DNA from: Cornus controversa | Taxonomy: Eukaryota > Streptophyta > Magnoliopsida > Cornales > Cornaceae | Direction of reading: 5' to 3' | NCBI GenBank assembly: GCA_026545225.1 | Contig: CM048850.1 | Location: 24,354,297 to 24,418,296, forward strand | Length of the DNA: 64,000 nt | Shown: positions 8,012 to 61,576 of the stretch, piece after piece | Layout of the letters: every line of letters begins with the position of its first letter | How positions within the stretch are numbered: the first letter of the stretch is position 1 | The notes under the pieces: generated by a model | What the model was told of the DNA's origin: nothing | The model's input: only the letters and a program-made list of their open reading frames with translations | Database searches by the model: none | Program-made: the position numbers and the translations under genes

Positions 8012-8045
8012 TTGATAACAATTGCGGATTGCCCACCAGTCTCCT
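8012..8045. repeat. Junction repeat R1 (left flank L8, right flank R8)
   Basis: Shortened copy of the ~60 bp direct repeat containing GATAACAATTGCGGATTGCC. Left flank is AAGTTCCAGTGTGTGTTAAA (type L8); right flank is CCACCTCAACCAATGCC (type R8). About 35 bases (GGACGGACGGGCCC and following) present in R3 and R4 are missing here. Confidence 0.7.
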
Positions 8046-8379
8046 TCAAAAAACCACCTCAACCAATGCCATAACCAAACTGATCAATCAATAAACATAC
8101 ATGATTAATTGCCGTCACAGTACTCTACTAGAATACATCAACAATGACATTACGTGATCTAGGGTATACCAGTTTAGTTAGGCTTGGTCATTTATTTAGC
8201 TCTGCCTCTCATAACATGTGAAGCCCTTTTCACTGTATGACTTTTCTTTTTCAACAAAATTAATGAAAGCCTTCTCATCAAGACTTAAAAGGGTCAAGTA
8301 TTCCATGCGAGACTTTGTTTAAACAACAGGTCAGTGCATAAACTAATTGATCCTTTCAAAGAAAAAGAACCACCCCCCA

Positions 8380-8420
8380 ACACACACACACACACACACA
8401 CACACACGCGCGCGCGCGCA
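8380..8420. repeat. (CA)n(CG)n alternating purine-pyrimidine tract
   Basis: A run of about 13 CA units passes directly into six CG units, giving roughly 40 bases of unbroken purine-pyrimidine alternation. It lies in the part of block W that is missing from copy 2. Confidence 0.9.
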
Positions 8421-8707
8421 GATTAAAATAGTCCATATACACTGATAAATGGAATACAGAGGATGATAAAAAAAAACTACACCAAGAATAGAACCAAAGG
8501 ATATGGTCCTTGACCAAAAGAAAAGCAAGCAACCAACCATATCAAAAGCGCTCTCACACTACAAAGAAAAAAAAAAGAAGAAAAAAATAGGACATTGCTC
8601 CAAGTAATTACCCAACTACTTTGATGCTCCAAACAGTCTACTAACAATCCCCACTTTAAGCTCAGGCAAACATTTAGCTTCAGAACAAACAAACACACCA
8701 TGTCAAC

Positions 8708-8805
8708 CTATGCCCAATTTCCACTACCCCTTCCACGGCCACCCATTTGTCCACGCCCACGACCATAACCTCTATCACCACCCCTGCCTCTTTCATATCC
8801 AGCAC
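8708..8805 (-). pseudogene. Orphan last exon of an RGG-box RNA-binding protein
   Basis: After an acceptor (TTTTTGAATAG, minus strand) a frame reads GAGYERGRGGDRGYGRGRGQ and then MGGRGRGSGNWA, then a stop. Such an Arg-Gly-rich tail is typical of the C terminus of RNA-binding proteins, for example G3BP/NTF2-RRM or glycine-rich proteins, where RGG repeats bind RNA and can be methylated on arginine. No upstream RNA-binding exon was found within 1 kb, so this looks like a captured exon rather than a gene. The parent family cannot be told from the tail alone. It is absent from copy 2 of the block. Confidence 0.55.
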
Positions 8806-9779
8806 CTATTCAAAAACAGTTATGCGAATTAATTAACCCAACAGTGCATGTATTATAAGCATTACCACATCTTGTATGAACATGAATGAATGAAGAAACA
8901 AGCGTAGATTCAGGCTCATCAAAGAATAGATGCCATCTGAGAATTGAACATCAAAGTAGGGGAAGACAACTGGAATTTAAGACTTCCCAGCTGCCTGAAT
9001 TTACGTCATTAACCAGCTACCCAACACTGAGAAGCCAAAAAAATTTTTGAATCAAAGAAACCCAAAATATGTGCAAAATCATCATTTGGAATCCATTTAC
9101 AGACCCTAAATAACCTATATAGTAGTCATCATAGGATAGCCACTTGCATCCTCCTATGTCTCTGATATGGTTTTTAGCATAAAAGGAAAAAATAGAATAG
9201 CCACCATTTTCTGCCAGTAGATTAAATTTGTCGTCACAGTAATGCATTGGAATTAACCAGCGGCACAACATGATGAACTAACAACTAGAATGCATTCACA
9301 GAAGCTATCTAAAGAATGACCCAACAGTACCGTGATCCATGACTGGAACAACCCTTATATAGCATAACTGTGATTAAAAAACATGGCAATTGCCAATTGA
9401 TATACCTCGTGTGCCACATGTCATCCAATGGCATTTACCATCCATACTGTGTACCCAAAACTAGTGTACCCATCTCTCTCCCTCTCTAGGCTTCGATGGC
9501 CATCACAGTGTGTCTTCACCATCAATTCTGATGTCCGTGCTCTGCTCCACTCGGTCGTATTAATGAGGACGATGAAGAAGGATAACCATAAACTGAAGCA
9601 AGGTCGCAATATTGTGGGAAACTTTGGGCATTTTGTTAATTCAAATTGTGCATAACCATGTGAGAGATTGGACTCCTCTCGCGGTAATTGAATTCTGGCC
9701 ATTTGAACTATCCAAGATCGTTTCACAATATGAAATAGAGAACCACAAAATTGAACCAAAAGATGGACACCATTTGGGG

Positions 9780-9833
9780 ATGATAACAATTGCGGATTGC
9801 CCACCATTCTTCTTACCTCTCTCCTTCAAGAAA
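9780..9833. repeat. Junction repeat R2 (left flank L9, right flank R9)
   Basis: Full copy of the ~60 bp repeat running through CTTACCTCTCTCCTTCAAG. Left flank is GATGGACACCATTTGGGG (type L9); right flank is CCATAAACACGATCTGC (type R9). Confidence 0.75.
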
Positions 9834-10281
9834 CCATAAACACGATCTGCAAATAATTAATTGCATGAATTTAGAGTTTGTAAATCATTTAATACGTACT
9901 CCAAAAAGTGTAGCAGATGTGTTGATTGTTCGTTACCAAGAAAATAAAATAAAACAAAACAAAAAATGACAGAATATGTTTTTGTCTTTTGGAAAGGTAT
10001 GCCACATGATTCTTGGGTCTCTTGCTTGAGGACAAAAACAACCGCACAACTCTCTCTCTTTCTCTCTCTTAATTAACAATAGGTGTCGGGCGGCACTGTT
10101 TCTGGGTCATGACGCCAACCACTCTGTCCGTACATTTTTCAACCATGGTCACCTTATACTCCTCCAATCAATTTCAATCCTTTCCTATTAAGGAAAAATA
10201 AAAAATACTGTAGTAATTAATTGGAATCAGCATCAGATGTACCCCAGAATCATCCTCTCTGTTGAATCCTCTTTTTAATTG

Positions 10282-10321
<40 letters not shown>

Positions 10322-10345
10322 CATACACATACAGATATCTGAGCA

Positions 10346-10546
10346 ATGACAAATAACAATAACAATGCGGGTTCATTCGAGGCCTTCCTAGAAGGCTGGA
10401 TAGTTCGTCAAGAACACAATTTTGACGAGCTCCTCACTGCCCAGCAAAACTTACACGAGTCTAGTGATGAGTATCTCATAGACCTCACATCACGAGTGCT
10501 GTCTAACTACCAGCAATACTATGAAGAAAAGTCCATACGAATTTTA
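10346..10546 (+). pseudogene. DOG1-domain protein, N-terminal fragment, copy 1
   Basis: From the ATG the frame reads MTNNNNNAGSFEAFLEGWIV and then RQEHNFDELLTAQ, ending in VLSNYQQYYEEKS. This is the start of the DOG1 domain shared by DELAY OF GERMINATION1-like proteins and TGA factors (pattern F..F...WL..Q...L.EL......SD..L..L....L.HY..YY..KS). The family normally has over 200 residues; here homology stops after about 63, where the sequence passes into module H and meets a stop seven codons later. The same breakpoint occurs in copy 2 (12,835). About 500 bp of original 5' flank is kept, with a (TA)n tract just upstream. A functional protein is unlikely. Confidence 0.75.
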
Positions 10547-10900
10547 CGTGCTTCTTGTTAGGTGGTCTTCTACGGTGTGGATACAGAGGAGGAAGACAGT
10601 GCGTAGGTGATGATGAGTTTGAATTGGAGCATTCACTTTTATGCAAGGGCTAAAAACGTAAAGGAACAAACGATTGAGACAAGAACAAAAAACGTACAAA
10701 GGACAAATGATTAAAACAAAATCGCGTGATAATTTATTTTTCAATATCCTTGAATTAAGGTAATAAAACTCAAAATCCAAAAGTACACTCTTTTTTTTTT
10801 CTTCCTTTTCTCTCTCTCTATTTATAGCCTCCTTCCTTTTGTCTTTTTCCTTTCTCTTCTTCAAATGCGGAGGATTGATATTTCTTCTTTGCGGCAGGAG
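10547..10900 (+). promoter_or_regulatory. Module H copy 2, promoter-like with TATA box
   Basis: Starts within TACGTGCTTCTTGTTAGG, right after the DOG1 fragment. It contains CTATTTATAGCC (TATA core about 10,819-10,826) and a CT-rich leader that ends near AATGCGGAGGATTGATA. The short frame after it (MRRIDISSLRQEV) is not recognised. It converges on the minus-strand OXS3 copy that follows. Confidence 0.4.
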
Positions 10901-11042
10901 GTGACACGAGATGGCTTAGTGGGCTTTTGCCTGGGAGAGGTGTTGGGTTTGTGGGTTGGGTTTGGCGATATGGGCCTTAGTGTTTGGGGGGTCCACATTA
11001 TTGCATTCAAAGCTGCTCATAGTTTCTGCCAGATTCGAGGTA

Positions 11043-11618
11043 CTAGCTTCTATTGGAGTTAGCAGCTCTCTTTGACATCCCACCACTACTATTTCTCAAA
11101 GGATAGCTACGATTCTTGTGAAAGAAAATGTTGTGAGCAAGCAAGTTCTTGCGTTTCCTTGGATAGATATTTTCCGACTTTGCAATGTCTTTGATGGAAG
11201 AACAAGATGAGGCATCTGCAAGACTAGTAAAAGATTTCGAATTGCCACAGTAGAACTTAGATATGCCCTTCTTGATCGGTAAGATTGCCTCCAAGGAATC
11301 CATAGTGTCCAATGATTCTATGTATGAGCTTTGAACCTCATCGTCGCCAGAGTCACCATCGCCGTCCGGGGCCCCACCGGACGAATCACTATCCCTCCCG
11401 ATCGACGACGAGCTGGATGACTCCAACTCCTCTTTAAGCTCTTGAACTGCATTCTTGGCCGTCGTAGTACCAATTGGTAACTGCCGATCAGCGACCAAAA
11501 TCCCGTTTACCTGCCTGCGAGCCTCTGGTGAATCATCGATTGGTGTAAAGGACATTCCATGGACGAACCCTGAGCGTTCAATCTGATTACCAGTATTACT
11601 CTCGAGAGGGATTGACAT
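11043..11618 (-). pseudogene. OXS3-like protein, copy 1, C-terminally truncated by a 4-base insertion
   Basis: The OXIDATIVE STRESS 3 family comprises small nuclear proteins linked to stress tolerance. Hallmarks in order: ESSSSSSIGRDSD (residues ~67-79), LDTMDSLEAILPIKKGISKF (~103-122), KSFTSLADASSCSSIKDIAK (~128-147) and a basic PRKRKNLLAHN stretch (~152-162). The start MSIPLESN is shared by copies 3 and 4. Compared with copies 2 and 3, four extra bases near 11,053 shift the frame and bring in TAG, so the tail STSNLAATMSSFE is lost at 191 residues. A TATA box lies ~190 bp upstream of the ATG. The family core is intact, so some activity cannot be excluded. Confidence 0.75.
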
Positions 11619-11803
11619 GATTACAAAAAGTCAATCAAAGCACACAAACAGAATTATACAAACATCGATTTGTGCATATATGTATATAGAATTATAGAAA
11701 CGATATATTAGAGAGAGAGAGAGAGAGGGAGAGAGAGTGAATAAATTGAGAAAAATAAACCCTTATCATCATCCAGACACGCTTACGAACAATACATAAA
11801 AGT

Positions 11804-11813
11804 CTATTTATAG
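11804..11813 (-). promoter_or_regulatory. Putative TATA box of OXS3 copy 1
   Basis: CTATAAATAG on the minus strand, ~190 bases upstream of the OXS3 ATG, with a GA/CT-rich leader between. It is kept at the same distance in copies 3 (22,727) and 4 (60,549). Confidence 0.55.
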
Positions 11814-11954
11814 GTACATAATTTTGAAGGCTAAGTAAAATTAGGAAACAAGAAATCCTAGTCCTAGATGGTTTAGGAGAAAGTGAAAGAAACTTATTAG
11901 GAAAAAATATATAATATATATTAGGAAATATATAATCTAGCAGTCCCACAAACT

Positions 11955-12148
11955 CAAAGTGTAATACCCTGTAATTTTGGAAGTTTTTTAATTTTAATTT
12001 AAATGCTTTATTTTGGAGATTTTTTTTATATTAGTGGTAGTTTAAACCGCCGAAAAATGACTTCAAAACCGTCGAAAATCTGCCAAAAGATTACCGACAG
12101 TAATGATTAATTTTTATCAACAGTTTACTATGAACCGCCGATAATGGG
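11955..12148. repeat. LTR-like start and CACTA-like subterminal repeats upstream of OXS3 copy 1
   Basis: TGTAATACCCTGTAATTTTG (from 11,957) resembles the 5' end of a Gypsy-type LTR. Beyond it lie repeated GTTTAAACCGCCGAAAAATG, AACCGTCG and TTACCGACAG motifs in both orientations, as in CACTA subterminal regions. The stretch stops abruptly at 12,148, where a copy of the 7,970 sequence begins (GATAAGCTAGATTAATAAG). Longer versions lie at 22,877-23,100 and 60,705-60,935. Confidence 0.5.
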
Positions 12149-12222
12149 ATAAGCTAGATTAATAAGTTCCAGTGTGTGTTAAATATACAAGGACGGACGG
12201 GCCCTACTGATAATGAGGATGA

Positions 12223-12277
12223 TAACAATTGCGGATTGCCCACCATTCTCCTTACCTCTTTCCTTCAGGAAACCATA
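12223..12277. repeat. Junction repeat R3 (left flank L8, right flank R9)
   Basis: This copy combines the left flank of R1/R4 (TTAAATATACAAGGACGG) with the right flank of R2 (AAACCATAAACACGATCTGC). That is the expected product of recombination deleting the DNA between R1 and R2. Confidence 0.75.
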
Positions 12278-12762
12278 AACACGATCTGCAAACAATTAAT
12301 TGCATGAATTTAGAGTTTGTAAATCATTTAATACGTACTCCAAAAATTGTAGCAGATGTGTTGATTGTTCGTTACCAAGAAAATAAAATAAAACAAAACA
12401 AAAAATGACACAGAATATGTTTTTGTCTTTTGGAAAGGTACGCCACATGATTCTTGGGTCTCTTGCTTGAGGACAAAAACAACCGCACAACTCTCTCTCT
12501 TTCTCTCTCTTAATTAACAGTAGGTGTCGGGCGGCACCGTTTTTGGGTCATGATGCCAACCACTCTGTCCGTACATTTTCCAACCATGGTCACCTTATAC
12601 TCCTCCAATCAATTTCAGTACTTTCTGATTAAGCTTATACTCCTCCAATCAATTTCAATCCTTTCCCATTAAGGAAAAATAAAAAATACTGTAGTAATTA
12701 ATTGGAATCAGCATCAGATGTACCCCAGAATCATCCTCTCTGTTGAATCCTCTTTTTAATTG

Positions 12763-12810
<48 letters not shown>

Positions 12811-12834
12811 CATACACATATAGATATCTGAGCA

Positions 12835-13035
12835 ATGACAAACAACAATAACAATGCGGGTTCATTCGAGGCCTTCCTAGAAGGCTGGATAGTTCGTAAA
12901 GAATACAATTTTGTCGAGCTCCTCACTGCCCAGCAAAACTTACACGAGTCTAGTGATGAGTATCTCATAGACCTCACATCACGAGTGCTATCTAACTACC
13001 AGCAATACTATGAAGAAAAGTCCATACGAATTTTA
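12835..13035 (+). pseudogene. DOG1-domain protein, N-terminal fragment, copy 2
   Basis: Near-identical to the fragment at 10,346 (VRKEYNFVELLTAQ instead of VRQEHNFDELLTAQ; the rest is the same), with the same break after YYEEKSIRILR into module H. Here the frame runs further, to residue 86, through module H (FCWVVFYGVDTEEEDSV), which is not DOG1 sequence. The 5' flank is duplicated too, with one extra ~30 bp internal repeat near 12,610-12,650. It arose by duplication of the already truncated gene. Confidence 0.75.
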
Positions 13036-13360
13036 CGTGCTTTTTGTTGGGTGGTCTTCTACGGTGTGGATACAGAGGAGGAAGACAGTGTGTAGGTGAT
13101 GATGAGTTTGAATTGGAGCATTCACTTTTATGCAAGGGCTAAAAACGTAAAGGAACAAACAATTGAGACAAGAACAAAAAACGTACAAAGGACAAATGAT
13201 TAAAAAAAATTGCGTGATAATCTCTTTTCAATATCCTTGAAGGTAATAAAACTCAAAATACAAAAGTACTCTTTTTTTTTTCCTCTATTTCTATTTATAG
13301 CCTCCTTACATTTTTGTCTTTTTCCTTTCTCTTCTTCGAATCCGGAGGATTGATATTTCT
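13036..13360 (+). promoter_or_regulatory. Module H copy 3, promoter-like with TATA box
   Basis: Same module as at 10,547, with CTATTTATAGCC (core ~13,292-13,299) and the CT-rich leader. It follows the second DOG1 fragment and converges on OXS3 copy 2. Confidence 0.4.
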
Positions 13361-13510
13361 TCTTTGCGTCAGGAGATGACACGAGGTGGCGATGTGGGGA
13401 TGTCAGATTAAGTCTTTCTTATTCGTCGGCGGCATTGTGCTTAGGGTACAATTTGGGATAGTAAAGTGTGTGGGCTTAGTGGGTTTAGTGGCCTTAGCCT
13501 GGGAGAGGTG

Positions 13511-13807
13511 CTAGGTTCGTGGGTTGGGTTTGGCGATATGGGCCTTAGTGTTTGGGGGGTCCACATTATTACATTCAAAGCTGCTCATAGTTGCTGCCAG
13601 ATTCGAGGTACTTCTATCGGAGTTGGCAGCTCTCTTTGACATCCCACCACTACTATTTCTCAAAGGATAGCTATGATTCTTGTCAAAGAAAATGTTGTGA
13701 GCAAGCAAGTTCTTGCGTTTCCTTGTATAGGTATTTTCCGACTTTGCAATGTCTTTGATGGAAGAACAAGATGAGGCATCTGCAAGACTAGTAAAATGTA
13801 TATTCAC
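13511..13807 (-). pseudogene. OXS3-like protein, copy 2, N-terminal half missing
   Basis: Homology begins at FTSLADASSCSSIKDIAKSE (from ~13,798 downwards) and runs through YTRKRKNLLAHNIFFDKN and SKRAANSDRSTSNLAATMSS to a TAG at 13,511. The N-terminal ~125 residues and promoter are gone: at 13,799 the sequence switches to module F. It lacks the 4-base insertion of copy 1, so its tail shows the longer ancestral reading. Confidence 0.7.
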
Positions 13808-14286
13808 TTGGTATTGAAGGTACTGTTATTCAACATAATAACATATATACCTCTTGGAATATGGAAATGACACGTGTCTTGGGATTGTATGCGAAAACTT
13901 GGTTAAGAGAATATACAATTTTAATAAATAATTGGAGATATGAAACATTGATATTAAACGTCTTCTAATCTAGTGATGTTAGGTCGACAAAAATCATAAA
14001 GCACTAGTATTATCTGAAATACTAGCAGACAAGTAATGTTTAGTTTAAAGGATCTGCAATCTGGTTTATCATTTAAAACTAATAATATGTCATTTTCTGC
14101 AGTTCATTCTTTTGGGACGGACGATGTTAAACAACCATTTGACTCAACTCCTATGATTTTGTATTAATGCTTGGGAAGAAATGGATTACACAAGGAAAAT
14201 GGATTAGGTTTCTCTCCAACCAAATGTCACAAGGGAACCAGGAGATGATATTTGTGCTACCTGTTTGCATCCTTACCTTTCGGTAC
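13799..14286. repeat. Module F, copy 1
   Basis: Matches 24,366-24,857 at high identity, from TGTATATTCACTTGGTATTG to ACCTTTCGGTACA. At its left end it is joined directly to truncated OXS3; the shared AAAATGTATATTC at 24,075 suggests a microhomology join. At its right end it is joined to block W copy 2. No coding frame is shared by both copies. Confidence 0.8.
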
Positions 14287-14766
14287 ACTAACAAGCATGA
14301 GGACAACAAATTCAAATTTATGATGAGTCAATATATATCGACTTGAGGGCCCTATATGTATGAATTTCAAATAACATGGTTCAAAAAGTTATTTAAAATT
14401 TACGTTGAGGCCTCTAGCCCGAGGGTCGAGCCCTACTAGGGATATGTTGTGAATATTGGATGTGCTTGCTGTAACTTCTAAAAATAAAGAAATTAATAAA
14501 TATAAAATGTCGATAGAGATTCTAGTAGCGCAAGGATTGTAAAAACAAATATAGTATATATTCTATACCTATAAATTAATACTCTCATGGGCTTTCGGAT
14601 TCAATTTCAATAACTCACATGCCCAATATTGTGGGTGTGTGTTTGCTTGAATTTTCAAAAAAATAAAATGTTTTCCTTTCAAATCTATTGATTTATCAAA
14701 TACAAAATTAGGATCATACTAGCTTAGATAATCACCTTGTGTGTGTGTGTGTGTGTAATGGCTGAT

Positions 14767-14805
<39 letters not shown>

Positions 14806-15515
14806 CCTTCCCCAATGGACTGAACATTGCAGTGAATACAGAGCATTTCTTCTCTACAGCCCAAACTTGCAACCAGTAAGTAATCTGTCACTATTACACC
14901 CTGCATTTTTCATCAATTTAAGTTACTTAACAGTAATTATAGAGACAGAAAGCATCTGCAATACTAAAGTATGAAAATAGCCAGGCATGTGCATACAATT
15001 ATATATATATATATGCACCTCTTTGCATCTTAGGTGTTGTATATTATGATGTAATAGATGAGATCAAAATATTCAAACATCAGCCAAATGATAGGAATGA
15101 CAAGAATGGATGGAATTAATGACATTTAAATAGTAGGCGAGTGGTACTTTCTCCTATTCTAAAGTAATAGGTCGAAGGTTCAAGCCATTAAAGACAAAAT
15201 GGATGTGAGAGCCTTAAATAGGAAAAGAAAAGTTCGCATTCTAATAGCTCTTGGGGGCACACCAATTTGTGAAAACTGGTGCATTTGCTTGGCGATTTCC
15301 ATTGATGAACGATAGAAATTAAGAAAGCTAATATAATTGGGACAAAACCATTACTATAGACACAACAAAGGTTTCAACGTTCTCAAATTATAGTACCATC
15401 TTAAGATGCGTTTTCACGGGATACAAAAAATGATTTCTCCAATTTATAATTAAGTTTATTGATTGATTGAAGCAATGATCAACTTTGTAATGTAATAGTG
15501 AATGAAGAAACATAC

Positions 15516-15733
15516 ACAATAGAACACAGATAAAAGATTAATGTCCCATCCAAGCTTCCATGACGATAAGTCCCGCTCCACTACAGCAGCCCAAAGTGCT
15601 GAAAGTATGCAACTGAAGAAGCATTGTATTGTTGTAAAATGTAGTTTCACTTGATCTTGCTTCACAATAGAGCCCTGAGAAAACCAAAGTTAATTGAAAA
15701 AAAAGAATCGATTCATTTATCAAAGAGAGGTTG

Positions 15734-15782
<49 letters not shown>

Positions 15783-17522
15783 TGGACCTGCATAATAAGC
15801 CGCAAGGACCATGTTATGGTGGCTGCAAGCATGAGAAGAGAACCTTTTATCCAATCCTCCATGGAAACGTACTTTGTTGATGCCATCGAAACTTTTCTTT
15901 TGGTATTGTAAGTCAGTATATTAGAAGAAAAGGTAGTTACAATCAGAATCCCATGGGATACAAAACAAAAGGTAAACAAAAGAAAAAATAAAACCAAGTG
16001 GAACAGAGAGTCTAAGTCAACAGTAATGAGAACATAATGAAATCATCATCAAAGGATCAAGTCATTGGGTATATGGATTTGCAGTAAAGAAGATAAGAAT
16101 TGGAAGTAGCAACCAGGCATCTGTAGCTTCAGTAAAATTCTTACTGATGTCAGGTCGCTGCTAAAATTCTTACTGAAATGGAACCTAGTTCTCAATCCTA
16201 CAATCATGAGTTAGGGAGATGTCAGGTTGCTGCTAAAATTCTTACTGATCTGCAGTCTCTGAAAGTGCAGCAGAGAAGTCTCAGCTTGATGATTTCTGTG
16301 ATTAACTTGGTAGTGATGTGTTGTTGAACTTTATCCTTGAGTTCCTCTCTTTCCATATGTAATAGATACGTCCTGCCAGTATGAGTCTATGTGAAAGGAA
16401 TTTTAGAGAATTGTCCCAATTAGATGATGCCCAACTGAGCAGATCAGGCCAAGAATTAGCTGGGCTTTGGAAGTTGCAGAGAGTTTGAAAATGATTCCAA
16501 ATTTCTGAGCTAAATTTACATTAAAAAAAATGTGGTTGTGGGATTCAACAGCTGCAAGGCAAAAGACAGCATGCATTGAGTGTAGTTTTCTTGGACATAC
16601 AAGGGCTGTCAAGTGTGAAAAGCCTGCCAAGTGCAGCAAGCCACAATATGAAGTTATGTCTGGGAATTTAGGGGTTGGTCCATATCAAATGAGTCCAGTT
16701 TAGGTTAGGTGGGGGAGGGGAGATAGATTCCATGGTGAGATGGAGTGAGGAGTTCATTTTGTTCTACAGAAAGGAATCAGTTGATTGATGTTAAATGGTG
16801 GTAGAAGATTTGAATTAAATTGGAAGTCCCTTGAGAAAAGTATACACCATAGCCCCTGAAACACCTCTTGCACAACCCAACACTTTTGCTATTCCATGTC
16901 CGTTGCCTAATGAAAAACACTTCCCATCCTGAAATGTACGTTCGAAACCATTTATATACACAAAGATAGATATATATATACACACACACACACACACAAA
17001 TCATATATAAATATATATATTAGTTTCTTTTGTTACCTTAAGACAACAGCCATGATAAAGACAATGGCGGGAATTGTGTTCGTCATTGTTGTGGCAAATG
17101 TTGCAGAGATGTATGCTAGTAGAGATTCAGAGCCATGGTAATCCTAGAATTCCCCATACATGAAGGATTGTTAGAAAAAATTTAATATTATATATGAGTT
17201 CAAGATACACTCTGATTGTATATTGTAAAGTAAGTCCAAAATTTGAATATAACAATGACAAAAGTAAGCACATCCCTAAATAAAGAAACAAAAAAGATCT
17301 TGCAAAGTAAGTACCATGACAGGGGAGCAGATTTCTTTCTACAAATTTAGGAGAAAATCACCATCAAGAATAATCATGCATAAGTTCAAACATATATACA
17401 CACACATACAAAGAAACACACATAGGTGGGAAACCATAAAATTAAACTTTCAAGGAAGAAAGCAAATGGAGCTAAGGCAAGTGTGGCGAATCGTTATCGA
17501 TAAGTGACAAGCACAGGAGGCT
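15516..17522 (-). pseudogene. WAT1-related (EamA/MtN21-type) transporter pseudogene, copy 2
   Basis: Same exons as copy 1: ~17,522-17,447, ~17,338-17,315, 17,143-17,037, 16,928-~16,815, ~15,898-15,788 and 15,674-15,516. It shares the TAA after VTYR, the frame break before ATFATAMTN and the missing 3' exons. The fourth exon keeps AKVLGCARGVSGAMVYTFLK, closer to the family consensus AKVLG than copy 1, where this part has decayed to a frame with stops. The first ~540 bp is almost identical to copy 1. Not expected to make a transporter. Confidence 0.8.
16403..16770 (-). mobile_element. LINE fragment in WAT1 intron, copy 2
   Basis: Same zf-RVT relic as at 6,552 (AVESHNHIFFNVNLAQKFGI), duplicated with the block. 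Both copies carry the same losses of the zinc-binding cysteines. Confidence 0.65.
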
Positions 17523-17758
17523 TTGTTCCTTCACTTACTGCTGCTACAATGTTAGACTACACAGACCAGTGAAACTCTCTCTGCCAAATATTTTACACTT
17601 CCTAACATTCTAAAAGTCTGTTATCCGAAGAATGACAACAAACACATTAATATTGTAGGTATTGATTTTTGTTATAACTACATAATAGGATAATCTAGAT
17701 TAATAAGTTCTAGTGTGTGTTAAATATACAAGGACGGACGGGCCCTGCTGATAATGGG

Positions 17759-17814
17759 GATGATAACAATTGCAGATTGCCCACCATTCTCCTTACCTCT
17801 CTCCTTCAAGAAAC
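17759..17814. repeat. Junction repeat R4 (left flank L8, right flank R8)
   Basis: Left flank AAATATACAAGGACGGACGG, right flank CCACCTCAACCAATGCC: the unrecombined counterpart of R1 in block W copy 2, but full length. Confidence 0.75.
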
Positions 17815-18464
17815 CACCTCAACCAATGCCATAACCAAACTGATCAATCAATAAACAAACATGATTAATTGCCATCACAGTACTCTACTAGAATACATCA
17901 ACAATACATATAACCAACCATTGTAATGCATTGGAATTAACCAGCTGCACAACATGATGAACTAACAACCAGAATGCATTCACAGAAGCTATCTAAAGAA
18001 TGACCCAACAGTACCGTGATCCATGACTGGAACAACCCATATATAGCATAACCGTGATTAAAAAACATGGCAATTGCCAATTGATATACCTCGTGTGCCA
18101 CATGTCATGCAATGGCATTTACCATCCATACTGTGTACCCAAAACTAGTGTACCCATCTCTCTCCCTCTCTAGGCTCCGATGGCCATCACAGTGTGTCTT
18201 CACCATCAATTCTGATATCCGTGCTCTGCTCCACTCGGTCGTATTAATGAGGACGATGAAGAAGGATAACCATAAACTGAAGCAAGGTCGCAATATTGTG
18301 GGAAACTTTGGGCATTTTGTTAATTCAAATTGTGCACAACCACGTGAGAGATCGGACTCCTCTCGCGGTAATTGAATTATGGCCATTTGAACTGTCCAAG
18401 ATTGTTTCACAATCTGAAATAGAGAACCACAAAATCGAACCAAAAGATGGACATCATTTGGGGA

Positions 18465-18520
18465 TGATAACAATTGCGGATTGCCCACCATTCCCCTTAC
18501 CTCTCTCCTTCAAGAAGCCA
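18465..18520. repeat. Junction repeat R5 (left flank L9, right flank R8)
   Basis: Left flank GATGGACATCATTTGGGG matches that of R2. Right flank CCACCTCAACCAATGTCATA matches that of R1 for ~30 bases before the sequence changes to CCTAGACACCCTGCTG. This is the reciprocal combination to R3. Confidence 0.75.
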
Positions 18521-18582
18521 CCTCAACCAATGTCATAACCAAATTGAACCTAGACACCCTGCTGATATCAAGAATTTTACGT

Positions 18583-18925
18583 GCTTCTTGTTAGGTGGTC
18601 TTCTACGGTGTGGATACAGAGGAGGAAGACAGTGCGTAGGTGACGATGAGTTTGAGTTGGAGCATTCACTTTTATGCAAGGGCTAAAAACATAGAGGAAC
18701 AAACGATTGAGACAAGAACAAAAAACGTACAAAGGACAAATGATTAAAACAAAATCGCGTGAAAATCTCTTTTCAATATACTTGAAGGTAATAAAACTCA
18801 AAATCCAAAAGTACTCTCTTTTTTTTATTCTTCTCTCTCTCTCTATTTATAGCCTCTTTCCTTTTGTCTTTTTCCTTTCTCTTCTTCGAATGCGGAGGAT
18901 TGATATTTCTTCTTAGCGGCAGGAG
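18583..18925 (+). promoter_or_regulatory. Module H copy 4, promoter-like with TATA box
   Basis: Starts at TTACGTGCTTCTTGTTAGG and has CTATTTATAGCC (core ~18,844-18,851). The DOG1 fragment found before copies 2 and 3 is absent; CCTAGACACCCTGCTGATAT precedes it instead. The downstream sequence leads to the OXS3 3' region, interrupted by the solo LTR. Confidence 0.4.
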
Positions 18926-19040
18926 GTGACACGAAGTGGCAATGTGGGGATGTCAGATTAAGTCTATCTTATTCATTGGTGGCCCACGTCGTTGTGGTTG
19001 GGGTACAATTTGGGATAGTAAGGTGTGTGGGTTTAGTGGG

Positions 19041-21840
19041 TGTAGAGACCGTGCCCAATTTTGGCCAGTTTCTTTCAATTTTTGTCATTTATCACTTTAA
19101 GCACATTTTAAATGATGTTTAACATGTTTTGAATGCGGGGAACGTATTTAGAAGGTTGGAATATGGTTTTGAAAAGTTTTGACAACTTTTGAGAAAGTTT
19201 GACTTTTTGGTCAACGGGGGCCCGGGATAAGGTTAAGTGGGTCCGAAAAATCCGGGAAATTTTACTTTTAGTTATTGACTAAATGAAATGTTTAGAGTGT
19301 TAAAGAAGTGATTTCGGGTCAAACGAAGTTTTCGAGAATTAATTCCGAGCTCGGGAAGGTACATTAAGTGGCTAGGGGTAAAATGGTCATTCCGCACCCC
19401 TAGGGTTGAGATAGATATCAAAAAGGGTCTGAGACATTTCATTTTACAGATCTCTCTCTCTCTCTACGTATCCCACTTCATCTCTCTCCCTTCTCTCTAG
19501 AGTTTGAGGGCCTTGAGGTGTGATTTGGAATATCTTGAAGAAGGAAAGAGTGTAGGGGACATCAAGGGCATCGGTTTGAACCGATCAAAGTCTCCATTTC
19601 GTGAAGTTGAGAAAGCTGGAATTTCTCAAAGTTGGATTCAAAGCTTGGGAATTTGAGGTAAAGGTGCTAGACTCATCTTTACTTTGATTCTATAGGTCAC
19701 ATACTTGTGACATGAAAGGTATATTGGGATTTCTTGAGTTTAGGGTTATGTATATGTGTATATATGTATACCAATGTGATTATGCATGTATAAATGTCTA
19801 GCATGTTGGTTAGAACTTATATGTGTTGTGTATGTGCAAATGAGACTATGAATGTTCTTGATGAAAAATGTGATCATTTGGTGAAAATATGAAAAATGTG
19901 AGTTTTATAGACTTGTGCATAAAAGATATGATTTTTCTTATGAAATGCATAAGCATGATGATTTTCATGGTATGAGTGTGTTGACATTGTGACAAGCTTG
20001 AGATGAGAAAGAAAAGTGCATTGTTTTGACAAAAGCATTGCATTGTGTGGGTTTTGTGCATTTATTTGATAAGTGTACATTATATGAAAAGCGAGGTTTT
20101 TGGGGCATGTGTGAGAATTAATAAGGGTATTGAACTCTAGGGTGCAAGACCCAAAACTTGGCCAAGCGGGTGTCGCTTCCGTCGGGTTAGTAGCCCAAAA
20201 AGCGTGAGCAGAGTATGTGGTCCCGACGTGACCCTTACTACGGATTGTGATAAGCGAAGTCCTCAGTTGAATTGATTTCTGACTTTACGTGGCGTGAGTT
20301 ATATATGTATATATTGTGGCTTGCTCAATTGGATATATATATATATATATATATGTATGTAAATACATTAAGATGTGAAGCATCACACATGATTTGAAAA
20401 ACGTGTTTGTTTATGGGTTAAAAACATGTATACTTGTCATGTAGACATGTAGGGATTTCATATACATTCATGCATGGCCGCCTGAGTTAGAGTGGGGTTG
20501 GGTGGATCATTCCTACTGAACCGCAGTGTTGCTCACCCCCGTTTATATAAACTTTTTCAGATAAGGCGCCAATGGAAGACGGAGTATGATTAGCTCTATG
20601 GATATGTTGAGCTTATTTTTGGACTTTTGCTCTTTGGAGATGTAGATAAATGTCCATGCCGGCTTGTGGCATGTAGACAATGGTTGTGGTGTTGCCTTTA
20701 CATTTGTATCTTTTTGTGTATGTGAAATCCAAATGTAGGTGCCACACTTGTAAGAAAGTGATTTTTGAGAAATGTATGTATAATGGCTTCCTTCATTTGA
20801 GACTTGTTGAATGTATGCAAAAAGGGCCATTTGAATTCTTATATGTATGGTCCCATGGATTATGTATCGATTCGGAATTTAAATGGATGAATGTATTCTT
20901 TTGTCTCTTGTATCTTAATTTCGTGGATATAAATGTTTAGAGTTGTGGATTTATATGGAATCATGGTTGTAGGATCTCAATGTATAAGTTAGATTGTATG
21001 GTTGGGTTAATGAAAATCACCTTTGGAAAAAAAAGAGGATGGTTTGGTTCACTTGAATTTTATGTGCAAGGTGAACTTAGGATGAGTTTTCTATAATTAT
21101 GCAAGATTTGAGTTTCAAATGTATAGATTGATGTGTGAGTATGATTTTTTATCAATGGTAGATGATTTATATGAGATATGAATGATCTAAGGTGGTTTGG
21201 TTGAGATTTGGGTTCAATTTGATCTTGTATAGGTGTTTGGGAAATCTGGGCAGTGCATTTCGATTAATCGAAATACCCATTTCGATTAATCGAGATGCCC
21301 ATCTCGATTGATCGAAATGGTTGCGAGATTTTATGAATTTTCAGGCTTAATCTCGATTAATCGAAGTCTCAATCTCGATTAATCGAAATATTGCAGGTCC
21401 AAGGTACCGAGGGGGTGTTTTCTTCGATTAATGGGGTCAAAATCTCGATTGATCGAGATTACTATTCACAACAATGTTCAAAAATTGTCCAGACTTCGTT
21501 TCGATGCAATTTCTCCGTTTTAAATCGGAATTGAGCGTGATTTTTTTTTAAATTGAGTATTTTTGAAATCTCTATCCAGTGGTATAGGTGTCATAATCAA
21601 ATTCCATCTGTGTAAAAAGTTGAGGTCCAGAACTTAGTGGTTTATATGCATGGAACCAAAGGTAAAAATCATTTGCAAGGGCCTTTGATGATCTAATGCC
21701 ACTTGAAGGGTGTGCATATAGAATGCTTCCACAATAGAAATGATTATAATGAGATTAAGGTGTGGGAACTTGAGGTGAAATTACGGATTCACCCCCGTTT
21801 CCTTCGCTCCTAACCGGGTGTCGGAAACCGGGGCGTGACA
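19041..21840 (+). mobile_element. Solo LTR, 2,800 bp, with 5 bp target-site duplication
   Basis: Begins TGTAGAGACCGTGCCC and ends CGGGGCGTGACA, so it has TGT...ACA termini, and it is flanked on both sides by GTGGG (19,036-19,040 and 21,841-21,845). The uninterrupted target is visible at ~13,450-13,490 (GTGGGTTTAGTGG). No gag-pol, primer site or second LTR is present, so unequal recombination between the two LTRs of a full element is the likely history. The 3' part is related to the reverse complement of 40,536-41,650. The size and the CGCCCCG-type terminus suit a Gypsy (Tekay/Del-like) LTR. It contains seven TCGATTAATCGA-type palindromes at 21,260-21,454. Confidence 0.88.
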
Positions 21841-22543
21841 GTGGGTTTAGTGGGCTTAGCCTGGGAGAGGTGCTGGGTTCGTGGGTGGGTTTGGCGATAT
21901 GGGCCTTAGTGTTTGGGGGGTCCACATTATTGCATTCAAAGCTGCTCATAGTTGCTGCCAGATTCGAGGTACTTCTATTGGAGTTGGCAGCTCTCTTTAA
22001 CATCCCACCATTACTATTTCTCAAAGGATAGCTACGATTCTTGTCAAAGAAAATGTTGTGAGCAAGCAAGTTCTTGCATTTCCTTGTATAGGTATTTTCC
22101 GACTTTGCAATGTCTTTGATGGAAGAACAAGATGAGGCATCTGCAATACTAGTAAAAGATTTTGACTTGCCACGGTAGAACTTTGATATGCCCTTCTTGA
22201 TCGATAAGACTGCCTCTAAGGAATCCATAGTGTCCAATGATCCTGTGTACGAGCTTTGAACCTCACCGTCGCCAGAGTCACCATCGCCATCCGGCGCCCC
22301 GCCGGACCAATCACTATCCCTCCCGATCGACGACGAGCTGGATGACTCCAACTCCTCCTTAAGCTCTTGAACTGCGTTCTTGGTCGTCGTAGTACCAACC
22401 GGTAACTGCCGATCAGCGGCCAAAATTCCGTTTACCTGCTTGCGAGCCTCCGGTGAATCATCGATTGGCTTAAAGGACATTCCATGGACGAACCCTGAGC
22501 GTTCGATCCGATTACCAGCATTACTCTCGAGAGGGATCGACAT
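21755..22543 (-). pseudogene. OXS3-like protein, copy 3 (most complete), 3' end read into the solo LTR
   Basis: Starts MSIPLESNAGNRIERSGF; carries ELESSSSSSIGRDSD (~residues 64-78), LDTMDSLEAVLSIKKGISKF (~103-122), SKSFTSIADASSCSSIKDIA (~127-146) and SKRAANSNRS-like sequence, then STSNLAATMSSFECNNVDPP. It is the only copy with both ends of the conserved region and no internal stop. The last ~30 residues (from about FRHPVRSEGNG) are encoded by the end of the solo LTR, so the stop at 21,755 is not native. It has a TATA box at 22,727-22,736 and a GA-rich leader. It could be expressed as a chimeric protein; the native C terminus is unknown to me. Confidence 0.7.
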
Positions 22544-22726
22544 GGTTACAAAAAGTCAATCAAAGCACACAAACAGAATTATACAAACATCGATTTGTGC
22601 ATATATGTATATAGAATTATAGAAACGATATATTAGAGAGAGAGAGGGAGAGAGAGCAAGCGAATAAATTGAGAAAAATAAACCCTTATCATCTTCCAGA
22701 CACGCTTACGAACAATACATAAAAGT

Positions 22727-22876: not shown

Positions 22877-23100
22877 GTAATACCCTGTAATTTTGGAGGT
22901 TTTTTAATTTTAATTTAAATTCTTTATTTTGGAGATTTTTTTATATTACCGGTAGTTTAAACCGCCGAAAAATAACTTCAAAACCGTCGAAAATCTGCCA
23001 AAAGATTACTGACGGTAATGGTTAATTTTTACTAACAGTTTACTATGAACCACCGGTAATCACTGACGGTTTTAAAAAAACTGCCGAAAAAATCCCCTTT
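22877..23100. repeat. LTR-like start plus CACTA-like subterminal repeats, OXS3 copy 3 side
   Basis: TGTAATACCCTGTAATTTTG followed by repeated GTTTAAACCGCCGAAAAA, AACCGTCG, ACTGACGG and CTGACGGTTTTAAAAAAACT motifs in both orientations. Full counterpart of 60,705-60,935; the copy at 11,957 is cut short. Confidence 0.5.
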
Positions 23101-23689
23101 TTTTTTTTTTCCTTCCCTCCCATCACTACTTTCCGACAACATTAGTGTACATTTTGAAATCACCAAAAGCAATTTAAAAGGGAGGGAGGGGTCGGAACAG
23201 AGATGGTTTGTTGAAGAACTCTGATAAAGTTACAGGCCCCGTTATTATTTGTATTCCTAGCTTAACACAGTGTTGTGCATGCAGAACCACTCAATTGGAA
23301 TGGCAATTCCTAGTAAATCTCCACTCAGTTAAAAAACAAAATTACTAAATCTCCACTCAGTTAAAAAATAAAATTAACCCAAAAAGAATAGATATACAAT
23401 GAAGAAAAACAAGAGAATCAAGACATCTCATGTTCTGAAAAATAGGCAAGAATATCTCATTTTCATTCCATCGCATATAACAAAAATTCACATCTAATTA
23501 ATAAAATAGTAATTTGAAACATTTCTTCAATTGTAAATATCCACAAACTACAACCAACAATTTGGAACAAATACATGAATCAACTTAATTCTATGCACAA
23601 ATTCACTTCAACTTATCTGCAAAAAATCTTATACAGAGTTAAATATAGTATGAGCATTCTTTTGCTGCTGCTGCAGAAAGTTAGAACCA
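23101..23689. repeat. Module E, copy 1 (non-coding part)
   Basis: Matches ~60,930-61,520, including a local repeat of AAATCTCCACTCAGTTAAAA (twice in both copies). AT-rich and intron-like; it lies downstream of the minus-strand PP2C relic. No frame is kept in both copies. Confidence 0.75.
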
Positions 23690-30967: not shown

Positions 30968-31064
30968 ATTTCTGACGGTTTTAAACCGCCGGTAATGACT
31001 TCAAATTTCTGGCACTTCTAATATCACCGGTCAAAAATCGTTGAAAAATACTAAATATGTTGTG
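30968..31064 (-). mobile_element. CACTA-like terminus, copy 2, damaged end
   Basis: Same subterminal motifs (CTGACGGTTTTAAACCGCCG) as at 1-103, but the end reads TGTTGTG instead of TGTTGTAGTG: the three bases TAG of the reversed CACTA are missing. The outer flank TCATGTCCC is intact. Confidence 0.6.
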
Positions 31065-32835
31065 TCATGTCCCAATTCTGCGAATTAATGTATAAGAAAA
31101 TCATGTGTTATATAGTAGGCAATTTCAGGCACTTTTTTTTTCCTTTCTGTTTTCTTGAAGAAATTTATCCGTTTAAGTCCTGCATTGACAAATTTATCTG
31201 TTTACTTGAAAAATGAAAGATGAAGGTTATATTGACAAATGAGTGTATTAGATTTTTCAAAAAGACATAAAAAAAAATAAAATTGAATGGTAGCTTGACA
31301 TATGTGCAAGGAAGCACAGATACGATATGAGTACGACTATACGACAAATTTTAGAAAAAAAATAGAATAAGGATATGGTATGATACAACAATTTAAAAAA
31401 ATAAAAATTATACTTCTATATATACATAAAAAATTAATTTAATGTTATATACATGTATTGTAATTAACATTTCTTTTTAAAATATTATGATTAACGAATA
31501 AAAATAAGAATTATGAGTCTCATATTTTAATAAATTTTAAACTTCTCTTAAGATTATACTATAATATTACTCTTAGAAAACTATATTTTAATATTCAAAA
31601 CTGTTAAAAATGTTTTCTGAAATATTTGAGAAATATTGGATACGTGATCGAATTATTTGAATAGTATTGCATACGTGCTAGAAATAAGAATATATATATT
31701 TTAAAGTTATGGATATATTTAAGAAGTATTAGACACTTATCTCTGAGTATTAGTATATGAACACAATATAAGTACGTTAATCTTATAGAAGTATCCATTC
31801 TCTAATTTTTATTTATTTTTTTCTTCTTCTTCTTCTTTCTCTTCTTTAAATTTCTTCTCCCTGCACTCATGTATAATATATGTGCAGTAATATATATATA
31901 TTTTTTCTCTTCGATCTTCTTCTCAAAATTTATTATTGTAATTTTATATACTTAATGTTTGTATTTTTTGTTTCTAAATTTTTCTTGATTATTGCACTAT
32001 TAATGCGTTTATTTATTGGTGCAACGGTAAAATTACTCCATTCAAAAGGATCTAGTGAGAGATAAATTGCGAAACATACTTTCTGACTGTAGCAGAGTGG
32101 TACACATTACTTTTTCTCATGCCTCATGTAATTCTTACAAAACATCTAACCCATTGAGAGTCTCTCCCTGATGGAGGAAGACTTGAGAAAGAACCTATTT
32201 TCTTATAGATTCTTAACCGCATAAAGTTTTCCAGTGGGATCGAAAAATGACTTTTGAAAGACACAATGTAGACTTTAGAAAGTGAAGAGAAAGACTTTGG
32301 AAAGTGACAAAAAGACTTTAGAAAGAAAAAACTGTACAAAATATCACGGAACAAAACCAGAATATGGAATTAAATCAATCAATGTTATGACACGGAGTAG
32401 ACATTAGGTGAGCTGGACATACCACCACGTTATTGATATGCGCACATACCAATAAAAATACACAATTCAATGAAAGTAGTCCGACTCACCCAATATCTTC
32501 TCCGTGGCTTAGCTCAATTTTTTGGCACATGGTAGGGTTATCTTGTCAAGCTGGTGCCCAGCATTCCAATTCAAGGGTTGCATCAACTCTGTATCAATTC
32601 TTATCAATAATCACTTTATTCCTTGTGCACAACTGTCCATTTTTTATGTTATTGCAATTATTTGTGATGGTTGAACTCATCAGTAAGAAAAATTGGGTTT
32701 TCCAACTATGATGAGTCACAAGTGGTGCTTATGATTTTGATTATTCTACAGCCCTTTTCTATGAATGTAGATGTAGACTAGTTAGGAACGTAGAGGTCAG
32801 TAAGTATCAAGGACAGTCAATTGTATGCTCACATA
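31065..32835. repeat. Duplicated module A, copy 2
   Basis: Counterpart of 104-1,905 without the long (TA)n tract, continuing ~70 bases further (AGGAACGTAGAGGTCA). No conserved reading frame. To the right, 32,836-33,179 shows no gene. Confidence 0.75.
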
Positions 32836-40381: not shown

Positions 40382-40535
40382 ATAACCTTTTCTTTGTTCA
40401 AATCTTATTAGTGATGCACATGTAAATTATTAAGGACTTTATCACATAAGAGTACAAAGATTAAAAAAGAGTACAATTACAATTACAAAAGTACTCTCTT
40501 AAACCCACCCCCACCATCACTATCCACCGTCGTCC

Positions 40536-42305
40536 TGTCACGCCCCGATTTTCGACACCCGGTTAGGAGCGAGGGAAACCGGGGTGAATCCGTAATTTCA
40601 CCTCAAGTTCCCACACCTTAATCTCATTTTAATTTATTCTATTGCGGAAGCATTCTATATGTACACCCTTCAGGTGACATAAGATCATCAATAGCCCTTG
40701 CAAATGATTTTCACGAAAATCGGGCATGATCCATTCCAAATAATCAGCTCCTGACATGTTACACCTGCTTTACAATTCATATGGACACTTCTGAGCACGT
40801 GTCCCCTCAACATTTCTACAACATGCATAATAAAATCAAAAATATACCTGCCTCAGTCCTTGAATGTCCGTATTACATCTATACATCACATGAATGAAAT
40901 ACATCTGAAGGAACTGAATCACCATAATCGCTCCATACATCTAATCCAATGTCCTAATTATACACTAAATTCTAAAGAATTTAACTACTACCTCTGCCTC
41001 TGGTACTATAAGTCTTCTAACTGACTCCGTAATCAGCAATACCTGCAAAATCTGGGAGGGGGTGAGCTCAAAGGCCCAACAAGATATGTAGAACTGTACT
41101 ATCATCGCAGCAGCAGGTCGACCCTCACATATTCTCAAAAATATACATGCACTTAAATATATCATGATATTTAAAGTCATGCCCCTCCTATCATACATGA
41201 ACCAACAATGCATATGACAGTTCTAACACTTATGAACATTTAAATCTAATACACCTGATTTATGAAAATCGTTTACAACATGTTCAAGAGCAATACACAT
41301 CCAGTATTCATATGTATAGAAAACATATATATATAGAGGCATTACATGAACGATGAAAATCAAATACCACGTCACCTACTCAACAAGATCCATTGAATCA
41401 TGCATAAATGCACATGCTCATGCATTTTTACCCAAACATTTACATTTTTCAAATCATGCATGATACTTCACATAAAGTGCAAATACATACGTATATAACT
41501 CACACCAAACTAATTCATAGGGGGCTTTCTCATCACTCCAATAGTAAGGGTCTCTTCGGCACCCAAACTCTGCTTGTGCTTTATCGGGTTACTAACCCAA
41601 AGGGAGCACCTCCTCTTGGCCAAGTTTTGGGTCTTTCACCCTAGGGGTCTTCCCCTTATCTTAATTTCACACTCCTGCCCCAAAATCATATATATATTGC
41701 ATAAAATCACACCTATGCACTTATCCACACCATGAATGCATTTTTGTCAAATTAATGCATTTTCCTTCCATCTCAATATTGTCACAATGTCATCACACTC
41801 ATATCATGGAAATCATCATGCTTATGCATTTTCAAGAAAATTACATCTCTCATACATAAATCTATAAACATCACCTCTTCACGTTTTCACCAAAAAATAC
41901 ACTTTTCATCGAAATCATTCATAATCACATTTGCACATACACAACATATACATAGATGTCACATCTTGCATATAATCACATATATACGTATATTAGCATA
42001 AATATAATCATACTTTCATTCCAATCATGCATTTTACTACGAGCAACCAACATGCATTCTTACAACCATATACAATCACGCAAATATATATATACACATA
42101 TATATATATATATATCATGTCACCCATATAGGTAGTAAAAACATACATAACATTTCACATATATATTTACGTATACTCAACTCATGCATAAGAATCATAT
42201 ATGCATGCAAGGCAACATCTAGCTAAATATACATATATAATTTAGCATACTTTACATGGCTCAATCCCTAAATGTGCATATAACAATGCTCTTACCCTCC
42301 AAGCC

Positions 42306-59852: not shown

Positions 59853-60367
59853 AATCTACGATTCTTGTCAAAGAAAATGTTGCGAGCAAGCAAGTTCTTG
59901 CGTTTCCTTGTATAGGTATTTTCCGTCTTTGCAATGTCTTTGATGGAAGAACAAGATGAGGCATCTACAAGACTAGTAAAAGATTTCGACTCACCACAGT
60001 AGAACTTAGATATGCCCTTCTTGATCGGTAAGACTGCCTCCAAGGAATCCATAGTGTCCAATGATCCTTTAAAAGAGCTCTGAACCTCACCATCGCCAGA
60101 GTCACTATCGTTGTCCGGCGCCCCACCGGACGAATCACTATCCCTCCCGATCGACGACGAGCTGGATGACTCCAACTCCTCCTTAAGCTCTTGAACTGCG
60201 TTCTTGGCCGTCGTAGTACCAACCGGTAACATCCGATCAGCGGCCAAAATCCTGTTTACTTGCCTGCAAGCCTTCGGTGAATCATCGATTGGTGTAAAGG
60301 ACATTCCATGGACGAACCCTGAGTGTTCGATCCAATTACCAGTATTACTCTCGAGAGGGATCGACAT
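59853..60367 (-). pseudogene. OXS3-like protein, copy 4, C-terminally truncated
   Basis: Starts MSIPLESNTGNWIEHSGFVH at 60,367. It keeps ELESSSSSSIGRDSD, LDTMDSLEAVLPIKKGISKF, SKSFTSLVDASSCSSIKDIA and YTRKRKNLLARNIFFDKNR, then runs into unrelated sequence at ~59,856 (stop at 59,810). The upstream leader is open in the same frame as far as 60,688, but MSIPLESN is the start shared by three copies. This copy has the family consensus LPIKKG, unlike copy 3 (LSIKKG). It lacks the SKRAAN tail. Promoter and leader are present. Confidence 0.75.
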
Positions 60368-60548
60368 GGTTACAAAAAGCCAATCAAAGCACACAAACAG
60401 AATTATACAAACATTGGTTTGTGCATATATGTATATAGAATTATAGAAACGATATATTAGAGAGAGAGGGAGAGAGAGAGACCGAATAAATTGAGGAAAA
60501 TAAACCCTTATCATCATCCAGACAAACTTATGAACAATACATAAAAGT

Positions 60549-60558
60549 CTATTTATAG
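60549..60558 (-). promoter_or_regulatory. Putative TATA box of OXS3 copy 4
   Basis: CTATAAATAG on the minus strand, ~180 bases upstream of the ATG, at the same place as in copies 1 and 3. Confidence 0.55.
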
Positions 60559-60704
60559 GTACATAATTTTGAAGGCTAAGTAAAATTAGGAAACAAGAAA
60601 TCCCATTCCTAGAGGGTTTAGGAGAAAGTGAAAGAAATTTATTAGGAAAAAATATATAATCTAAATTAGGAAATATATAATCTAGCAATCCTACAAACTC
60701 AAAG

Positions 60705-60935
60705 TGTAATATCCCGTAATTTTGGAAGTTTTTTAATTTTAATTTAAATGCTTTATTTTGGAGATTTTTTTATATTATTGACGGTTTAAACCACCGAAAA
60801 ATGACTTCAGAACCGCTGAAAAATTGCCAAAAGATTACCGACGGTGATGGTTAATTTTTACCAACAATTTACTATGAACTGCCGGTAAATCACTGACGGT
60901 TTTAAAAAAACTGCCGAAAAAATCCCTTTTTTTTT
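60705..60935. repeat. LTR-like start plus CACTA-like subterminal repeats, OXS3 copy 4 side
   Basis: TGTAATATCCCGTAATTTTG, then GACGGTTTAAACCACCG, AACCGCTG, TTACCGACGG and CTGACGGTTTTAAAAAAACT in alternating orientation. Direct counterpart of 22,877-23,100. Followed by module E copy 2 to ~61,576. Confidence 0.5.
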
Positions 60936-61576
60936 TTTCCTTCCCTCCCATCACTACTTTCCGACAACATTAGTGTACATTTTTACATTTTGAAATCACC
61001 AAAAGCAATTTAAAAGGGAGGGAGGGGACGGAACAGAGAAGATTTGTTGAAGAACTCTGATAAAGTTACAGCCCCCTGTTATTTGTATTCCTAACCTAAC
61101 ACATTGTTGTGCATGCAGAACCACTCAATTGGAATGGCGATTCCTACTAAATCTCCACTCAGTTAAAAAACAAAATTACTAAATCTCCACTCAGTTAAAA
61201 AAAAAAATTAACCCAAAAAGAGTAGATATACAATGAAGAAAAACAAGAGAATCAAGACATCTCATATTCTGTAAAATAGGCAAGAATATCTCATTTTCAT
61301 TCCATCGCATATAACAAAAATTCACATCTAATTAATAAGATAGTAATTTGAAACATTTCTTCAGTTGTAAATATCCACAAACTACAACCAACAATTTGGA
61401 ACAATTACATGAATCAACTTAATTCTATGCACAAATTCACTTCAACTTATCTGCTAAAAATCCTATACAGAATTAAATATAGTATGAGCATTCTTATTCT
61501 TTTGCTGCTGCTGCTGCAAAAAGTTAGAACCACTCCATTGGTCAGATACAAACGGCAATGACAGTGATGTTGTCAA

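Follow-up and report, generated by a model that had tools for sequence, protein, structure and literature searches.

In the sections of the account drawn on here, the maize P1-wr cluster is a tandem array that has the chimeric units p2/p1 and p1/p2 as its frame; a 50-bp filler, copied from two sites close by, occupies an end-joining joint there, and there has been amplification as well as exchange between the repeats (Goettel and Messing, 2009; PMC2686159). For the maize p1 alleles, the parts of a second paper used here propose end joining and then unequal crossover as the origin of composite flanks (Goettel and Messing, 2010; PMC3014980), and on wheat 2D, in the passages considered, both mechanisms were read from breakpoint signatures, two genes that are 96–98% identical being set against a repeated triplet (PMC6097286). 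The locus described here lies in a 64-kb stretch of the Cornus controversa genome (contig CM048850.1; G000:C6:24354297-24418296 in our numbering), referred to below as the window, where a repeat occurs five times (R1–R5) between two classes of left flank (L8 and L9) and two classes of right flank (R8 and R9). A sequence-only reading had taken R3 and R5 as the two products of an unequal crossing-over between an R1-type and an R2-type repeat. Our analysis indicates that the mosaic very probably arose mainly by end-joining repair within a tandem array, with a single exchange at the repeat.

The presence of five repeats of about 60 bp, and the flank classes assigned to them, were borne out by comparison of the copies. 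The 20-base core is found at 8014, 9782, 12221, 17762 (with one mismatch) and 18466 of the window, and these five matches at up to three mismatches compare with none in 100 dinucleotide shuffles. The common repeat is 62 bp long in R2–R5, R1 having been shortened by two internal losses that leave a 34-bp stretch (8013–8046) and the right end. The flank pairs are L8/R8 for R1 and R4, L9/R9 for R2, L8/R9 for R3 and L9/R8 for R5, and both complementary combinations are thus present. The similarity of R1 and R4 extends over more than 900 bp on the left and, on the right, over the 93 bp up to an insertion (C). L9 matches between R2 and R5 over 536 bp with 16 mismatches, and R9 between R2 and R3 over 702 aligned bp with 15 mismatches and three gaps totalling 50 bp. 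The L8 common to R3 and R4 is 69 bp (four mismatches; 73 bp at most) and the R8 common to R4 and R5 is only 27 bp (two mismatches). Both the L8 tract of about 73 bp at R3 and the 27-bp R8 tract at R5 stop at another abrupt junction, and a short foreign flank is found in exactly these two copies, the two that had been called recombinant. Alignment of the flanks places the switch within the 62 bp, but no base inside it was seen to group the copies by flank class and the crossover is placed no more finely than that. The comparison of the window with itself covered matches of 80 bp or more. A weak R8-like match (E value 0.23) lies at 9220–9259.

It is the relatives of the repeat elsewhere in this one genome that settle the ancestral order of the flanks. 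A single search of the 772-Mb genome with window positions 12200–12320, the counts from which are lower bounds, gave at least 27 matches, all of them in the window or in 13 fetched stretches; at least 26 carry the repeat and one (on contig C1) carries R9 only. Longer blocks were compared over matches of at least 70 bp at E values up to 1e-6, with low-complexity words and nested rows removed. Among the 26 repeat copies listed, 17 read L8 side/repeat/R8 (three R1 copies, two R4 copies, six at L012 and L013 together, and one each at L014, L015, L017, L018, L019 and L021), three are R2-type, three R3-type and two R5-type, and the remaining one, at L016, combines repeat/R9 with a left flank of a third kind. 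Of the 17 copies in the first group, 14, spread over three contigs, have R8 running through 13 bp into L9; the exceptions are the three R1 copies, in which piece C, 1,088 bp long in the window, takes the place of the 13 bp. L9 is therefore the downstream continuation of R8 and not an alternative left flank, and L8–repeat–R8–L9 is one contiguous ancestral sequence. It follows from this order that R2 contains two separate derived joints, L9–repeat and repeat–R9. Within the fetched stretches a return to the repeat after L9 occurs only in copies of the R5 type (two) and of the R2 type (three). At R4, the 17 bases that separate R8 from L9 were considered as filler and set aside, having no significant source and being native in the relatives.

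With this order, reciprocal exchange between an R1-type and an R2-type repeat, giving R3 by deletion and R5 by duplication with truncations afterwards, becomes very unlikely, even though every one of the four flank combinations is represented and the switch lies inside the common 62 bp. The supposed parents do not fit equally: L8/R8 is ancestral, but L9/R9 carries the two derived joints and lacks a 24-bp segment (Fl) that is present in R5. Because Fl is kept in R5 and missing from the R2 unit, exchange alone cannot have turned an R2-type unit into R5. Nor do the flanks beyond the exchange continue as they do in the parents, the R8 of R5 ending after 27 bp and the L8 of R3 after about 73 bp. 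Moreover, a single crossover places its two products on different chromatids and the products separate at meiosis, so that finding both on one chromosome needs a further event. The proposal could survive if R2 had formed in a single complex event and the R8 of R5 had afterwards been truncated by a deletion at the CTGA overlap, beside an Fl from another unit. The reading of R1 and R2 as parents and of R5 as the reciprocal duplication product is not supported. At most R3 agrees with the proposal: an exchange inside the repeat may have made it, as had been suggested, but R2 is equally possible as its product, and no reciprocal R3/R5 pair is required. A literature search for reciprocal products in plant arrays found no matching paper.

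What follows L9 in the relatives indicates how R5 may have formed. L9 is followed by the tail GCGTGAGACGATT or a close variant at three places in L012 and also at L014, L018 and L021, and at L015 the tail comes no more than a few bases later; it is found likewise at L013 (three places) and in part at L019, and the relatives, save L017, continue L9 with GCGTGAGACGATTATC or a close variant. Three copies are present at both L012 and L013, and the final one in each shows the order L9–X (634 bp)–Fl–F–G. In the R5 unit X is absent and 89 bp of repeat and R8 stand where L012 and L013 have the 634 bp; this stretch is 94.4% identical (five mismatches) to the repeat and R8 of R4, so that the insert at the deletion matches nearby sequence. 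Fl is identical at 24 of 24 positions between the R5 unit, L012 and L013, and at the R2 and R3 units R9 abuts F. Derivation of Fl as filler copied from the L8 of R4 was considered in view of an 11-bp match, which 1, 3 and 24 of 1000 shuffles equalled for the R4 neighbourhood, 1 kb upstream and ±5 kb, respectively; it was rejected because 17 bp are exact at 2770 and all 24 are found in L012 and L013; Fl is ancestral. We suggest that the ancestor of the R4/R5 unit lost X and gained in its place the repeat plus bases 1–27 of R8, copied as one templated patch from some 700 bp upstream, giving L9/R8. The R4–R5 spacing of 704 bp would also suit a tandem duplication of repeat–R8–L9 (0–1 bp joint) and then a deletion joining base 27 of R8 to Fl at CTGA, both joints being of the end-joining type. 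We regard this variant as possible but rather doubtful, as it takes two events where one patch insertion suffices and no intermediate with a longer R8 after the L9–repeat joint is seen among the 26 copies listed.

R9 corresponds to a piece, E, which on sequence comparison resembles a fragment of a gene at L020 (contig C1) and may derive from it or from a relative of it. At L020 piece E is present without any repeat (positions 4 to 699 of 702, 88.1% identical with gaps counted; over aligned bases 4.0% different from the R2 copy and 4.2% from the R3 copy), and there it comprises the upstream region and the first ~63 codons of an intact 189-aa open reading frame (ORF) with a DOG1 domain (E value 6e-24, profile positions 3–77 of 77). 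The window copy is cut off and matches DOG1 weakly (E value 5.3e-4; 20.6 bits, below the cut-off of 27). The arrangement resembles the gap patching in plants reportedly described by Wicker et al. in 2010, in which a gene fragment from elsewhere is said to be placed at a repaired break. As to the repeat itself, nothing in the whole window matched any of 4227 Rfam families at gathering scores, and viral contigs gave no exact match to the core. Its interpretation as a protein exon was dropped, the 25-residue reading across repeat and R9 having no PDB match up to an E value of 10; that reading would be chimeric because R9 appears to be DNA of a separate gene.

The joints themselves point to end joining. 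The overlap is 0–1 bp where L9 meets the repeat on its left, in R5 as in R2, 4 bp (CTGA) between R8 and Fl, and 4 bp (TAAT) between G and L8, and the repeat–E and E–F joints each hold three bases of neither parent; all five thus look to be of the end-joining type, three with overlaps of 0–4 bp and two with three unexplained bases. Overlaps computed for repeat–E (2+1) and E–F (1+2) were not used because of these extra bases. The copies of G at 22995–23110 and 60820–60950 continue past the point where G meets L8 at R3. The edges of the repeat would have served more than once as places where foreign or copied DNA was joined, with E on the right, L9 on the left and the third left flank at L016. 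Overlaps and three-base additions of this kind, together with the similar divergence of several blocks (A, B, L9 and E at 1.5–3.0%), would also be expected if one burst of replication template switching, resembling microhomology-mediated break-induced replication, had made all the joints at once. We consider this highly improbable, as mismatch rates of blocks between units within the window spread from 1.2% to 8.1%, R5-type units exist without E, and L016 has its own left flank. Collapsed or misjoined tandem copies would be a concern in an assembled array whose other block copies agree with the window at ~98.5%, and where two of these copies agree with one another at 99.8%. On the window's contig, however, the R1–R2–R3 block occurs at least three times and the R4–R5 block at least twice (window copies included), and the R2, R3 and R5 joints each recur in array copies that differ from the window by ~1.5%. 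The recurring joints are therefore not a single misassembly, and with units inside the window differing to the extent given above an artefact is extremely unlikely.

If the two derived joints are scored in the order L9 joint, R9 joint, the ancestral state is 00, R5 is 10, R3 is 01 and R2 is 11. Provided that each joint was made once, one exchange is therefore needed, with R3 or R2 as its product, and because R2 carries both joints an R5-like or R3-like form must have preceded it, unless R2 originated in a single complex event. On this basis we infer an order of events and, with it, the templated copying and the repair pathway. In the ancestor the repeat would have been an internal piece of a dispersed sequence, in an array reading L8–repeat–R8–L9–X–Fl–F. 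Following the substitution of X in the R5 unit, the 702-bp DOG1-domain gene piece would have been joined to the right edge of the repeat and to F, and one exchange within the 62 bp, whether by unequal crossing-over, single-strand annealing or template switching, would have given the fourth flank combination; later duplications of larger blocks would have multiplied the result. Two histories of equal length can be written in these terms. In the first, E would have replaced 51 bp in an R5-type unit to give R2, which then exchanged with an R4-type repeat to give R3; in the second, E would have replaced ~1.3 kb in an ancestral unit to give R3, which then exchanged with an R5-type unit to give R2. 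We lean slightly towards the first because its deletion is smaller.

Several observations weigh against this reconstruction. The site patterns of E and F are mostly private and base changes do not order the events, nor do the divergences of E (2.1%, R2/R3), L9 (3.0%, R2/R5) and block A (2.6%, R1/R4) separate them in time; two sites in E group R2 and R3 against L016 and L020. The copies that preserve X are not pristine, as most of L8 is deleted in the six copies at L012 and L013 (L8 is also partly deleted at L019) and L9 is internally altered there (e.g. positions 1–154 at 94–95% and 331–536 at 75%). The L017 copy has no tail after L9, R5 could instead be the 704-bp tandem duplication with a separate deletion, and the genome search gives minimum counts. 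As a wider idea, the repeated use of the repeat's edges for joining would make this short segment of a dispersed sequence a candidate fragile site, from which the capture of gene fragments and the growth of arrays could start; we hold this to be conceivable but unlikely.

The features are collected below. Within C, an open stretch of RGG-like residues on the minus strand (8711–8809) resembles, by eye, the final exon of a gene for an RNA-binding protein and has no Pfam match. The minus-strand ORF 11043–11630 in G is related to a 266-aa minus-strand ORF at 21755–22555 and to an ORF at 59810–60769; neither 11043–11630 nor 21755–22555 has a Pfam match, and we take these two to resemble OXIDATIVE STRESS 3-like (OXS3-like) proteins. 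In the R5 unit 2.8 kb (19046–21838) lie between F and G that are lacking at the R2 unit; parts of this insertion have inverted relatives near 40535–42019, and a comparison of its ends (19030–19109 and 21780–21859) for inverted matches of at least 18 of 25 bases gave none. The third left flank (L016:4979-5116) contains, by eye, two TTTATTTCGACAA-like arms in inverted orientation, which may form a small inverted-repeat element. Finally, 1–1905, 30968–32780 and 63520–64000 are 92–94% alike where aligned, which suggests a longer-range repetition of the window with a period near 31–32 kb.

Features of the repeat array, in window coordinates
Feature	Position	Strand	Description
R1	8013..8056	+	Repeat with two internal losses; L8/R8, ancestral class
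R2	9775..9836	+	62-bp repeat; left L9, right R9 (piece E); both derived joints
R3	12214..12275	+	62-bp repeat; left short L8, right R9 (piece E)
R4	17755..17816	+	62-bp repeat; ancestral context L8–repeat–R8–13 bp–L9
R5	18459..18520	+	62-bp repeat directly after L9; starts the 89-bp stretch matching repeat and R8
R9 (piece E)	9837..10538	+	Resembles upstream region and truncated 5' coding part of a DOG1-domain gene
Piece E, second copy beside R3	12276..13027	+	
L8 beside R4	17682..17754	+	Ancestral left side
Short L8 tract at R3	12141..12213	+	Joined to segment G with 4-bp overlap TAAT
R8 beside R4	17817..17909	+	Ancestral right side; L9 begins 13 bp later
R8 tract at R5	18521..18547	+	27 bp; ends at 4-bp overlap CTGA (both parents) with X/Fl sequence
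L9 before R2	9239..9774	+	
L9 before R5	17923..18458	+	Ancestral place, 13 bp after R8 of R4
C	8151..9238	+	1,088-bp insertion between R8 and L9 in R1 unit; 13 bp in 14 other copies
G	10913..12144	+	Segment with minus-strand ORF 11043–11630; truncated end abuts L8 of R3
Fl	18548..18571	+	24 ancestral bases at R5 unit, L012 and L013; absent at R2 and R3 units
F block right of R5	18572..19045	+	Other copies 10539–10923 and 13028–13488

The locus offers a clear worked example of how what appears to be a DOG1-domain gene fragment, consisting of the upstream region together with the 5' coding part, came to lie in a tandem array, and of how a neat pattern of 'both reciprocal products' can arise without reciprocal exchange. 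As far as the sections used here describe it, the maize P1-wr cluster likewise has chimeric units, copied filler and exchange among repeats (PMC2686159), but its units are 12-kb Myb genes, whereas the present array contains a truncated gene fragment among its pieces and has a shared segment of just 62 bp. With the maize p1 alleles, in the parts of that study considered, the locus has in common composite flanks and a combination of end joining and exchange, although alleles with phenotypes were compared there (PMC3014980) and a single genome here. The wheat 2D case, in the passages cited, is similar in that mechanisms were inferred from breakpoint signatures, and differs in that it concerned indels of 285 kb and more between cultivars (PMC6097286). 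By analogy, the process at this locus would seem to be of a known kind, as at maize P1-wr, and part of ordinary genome evolution.

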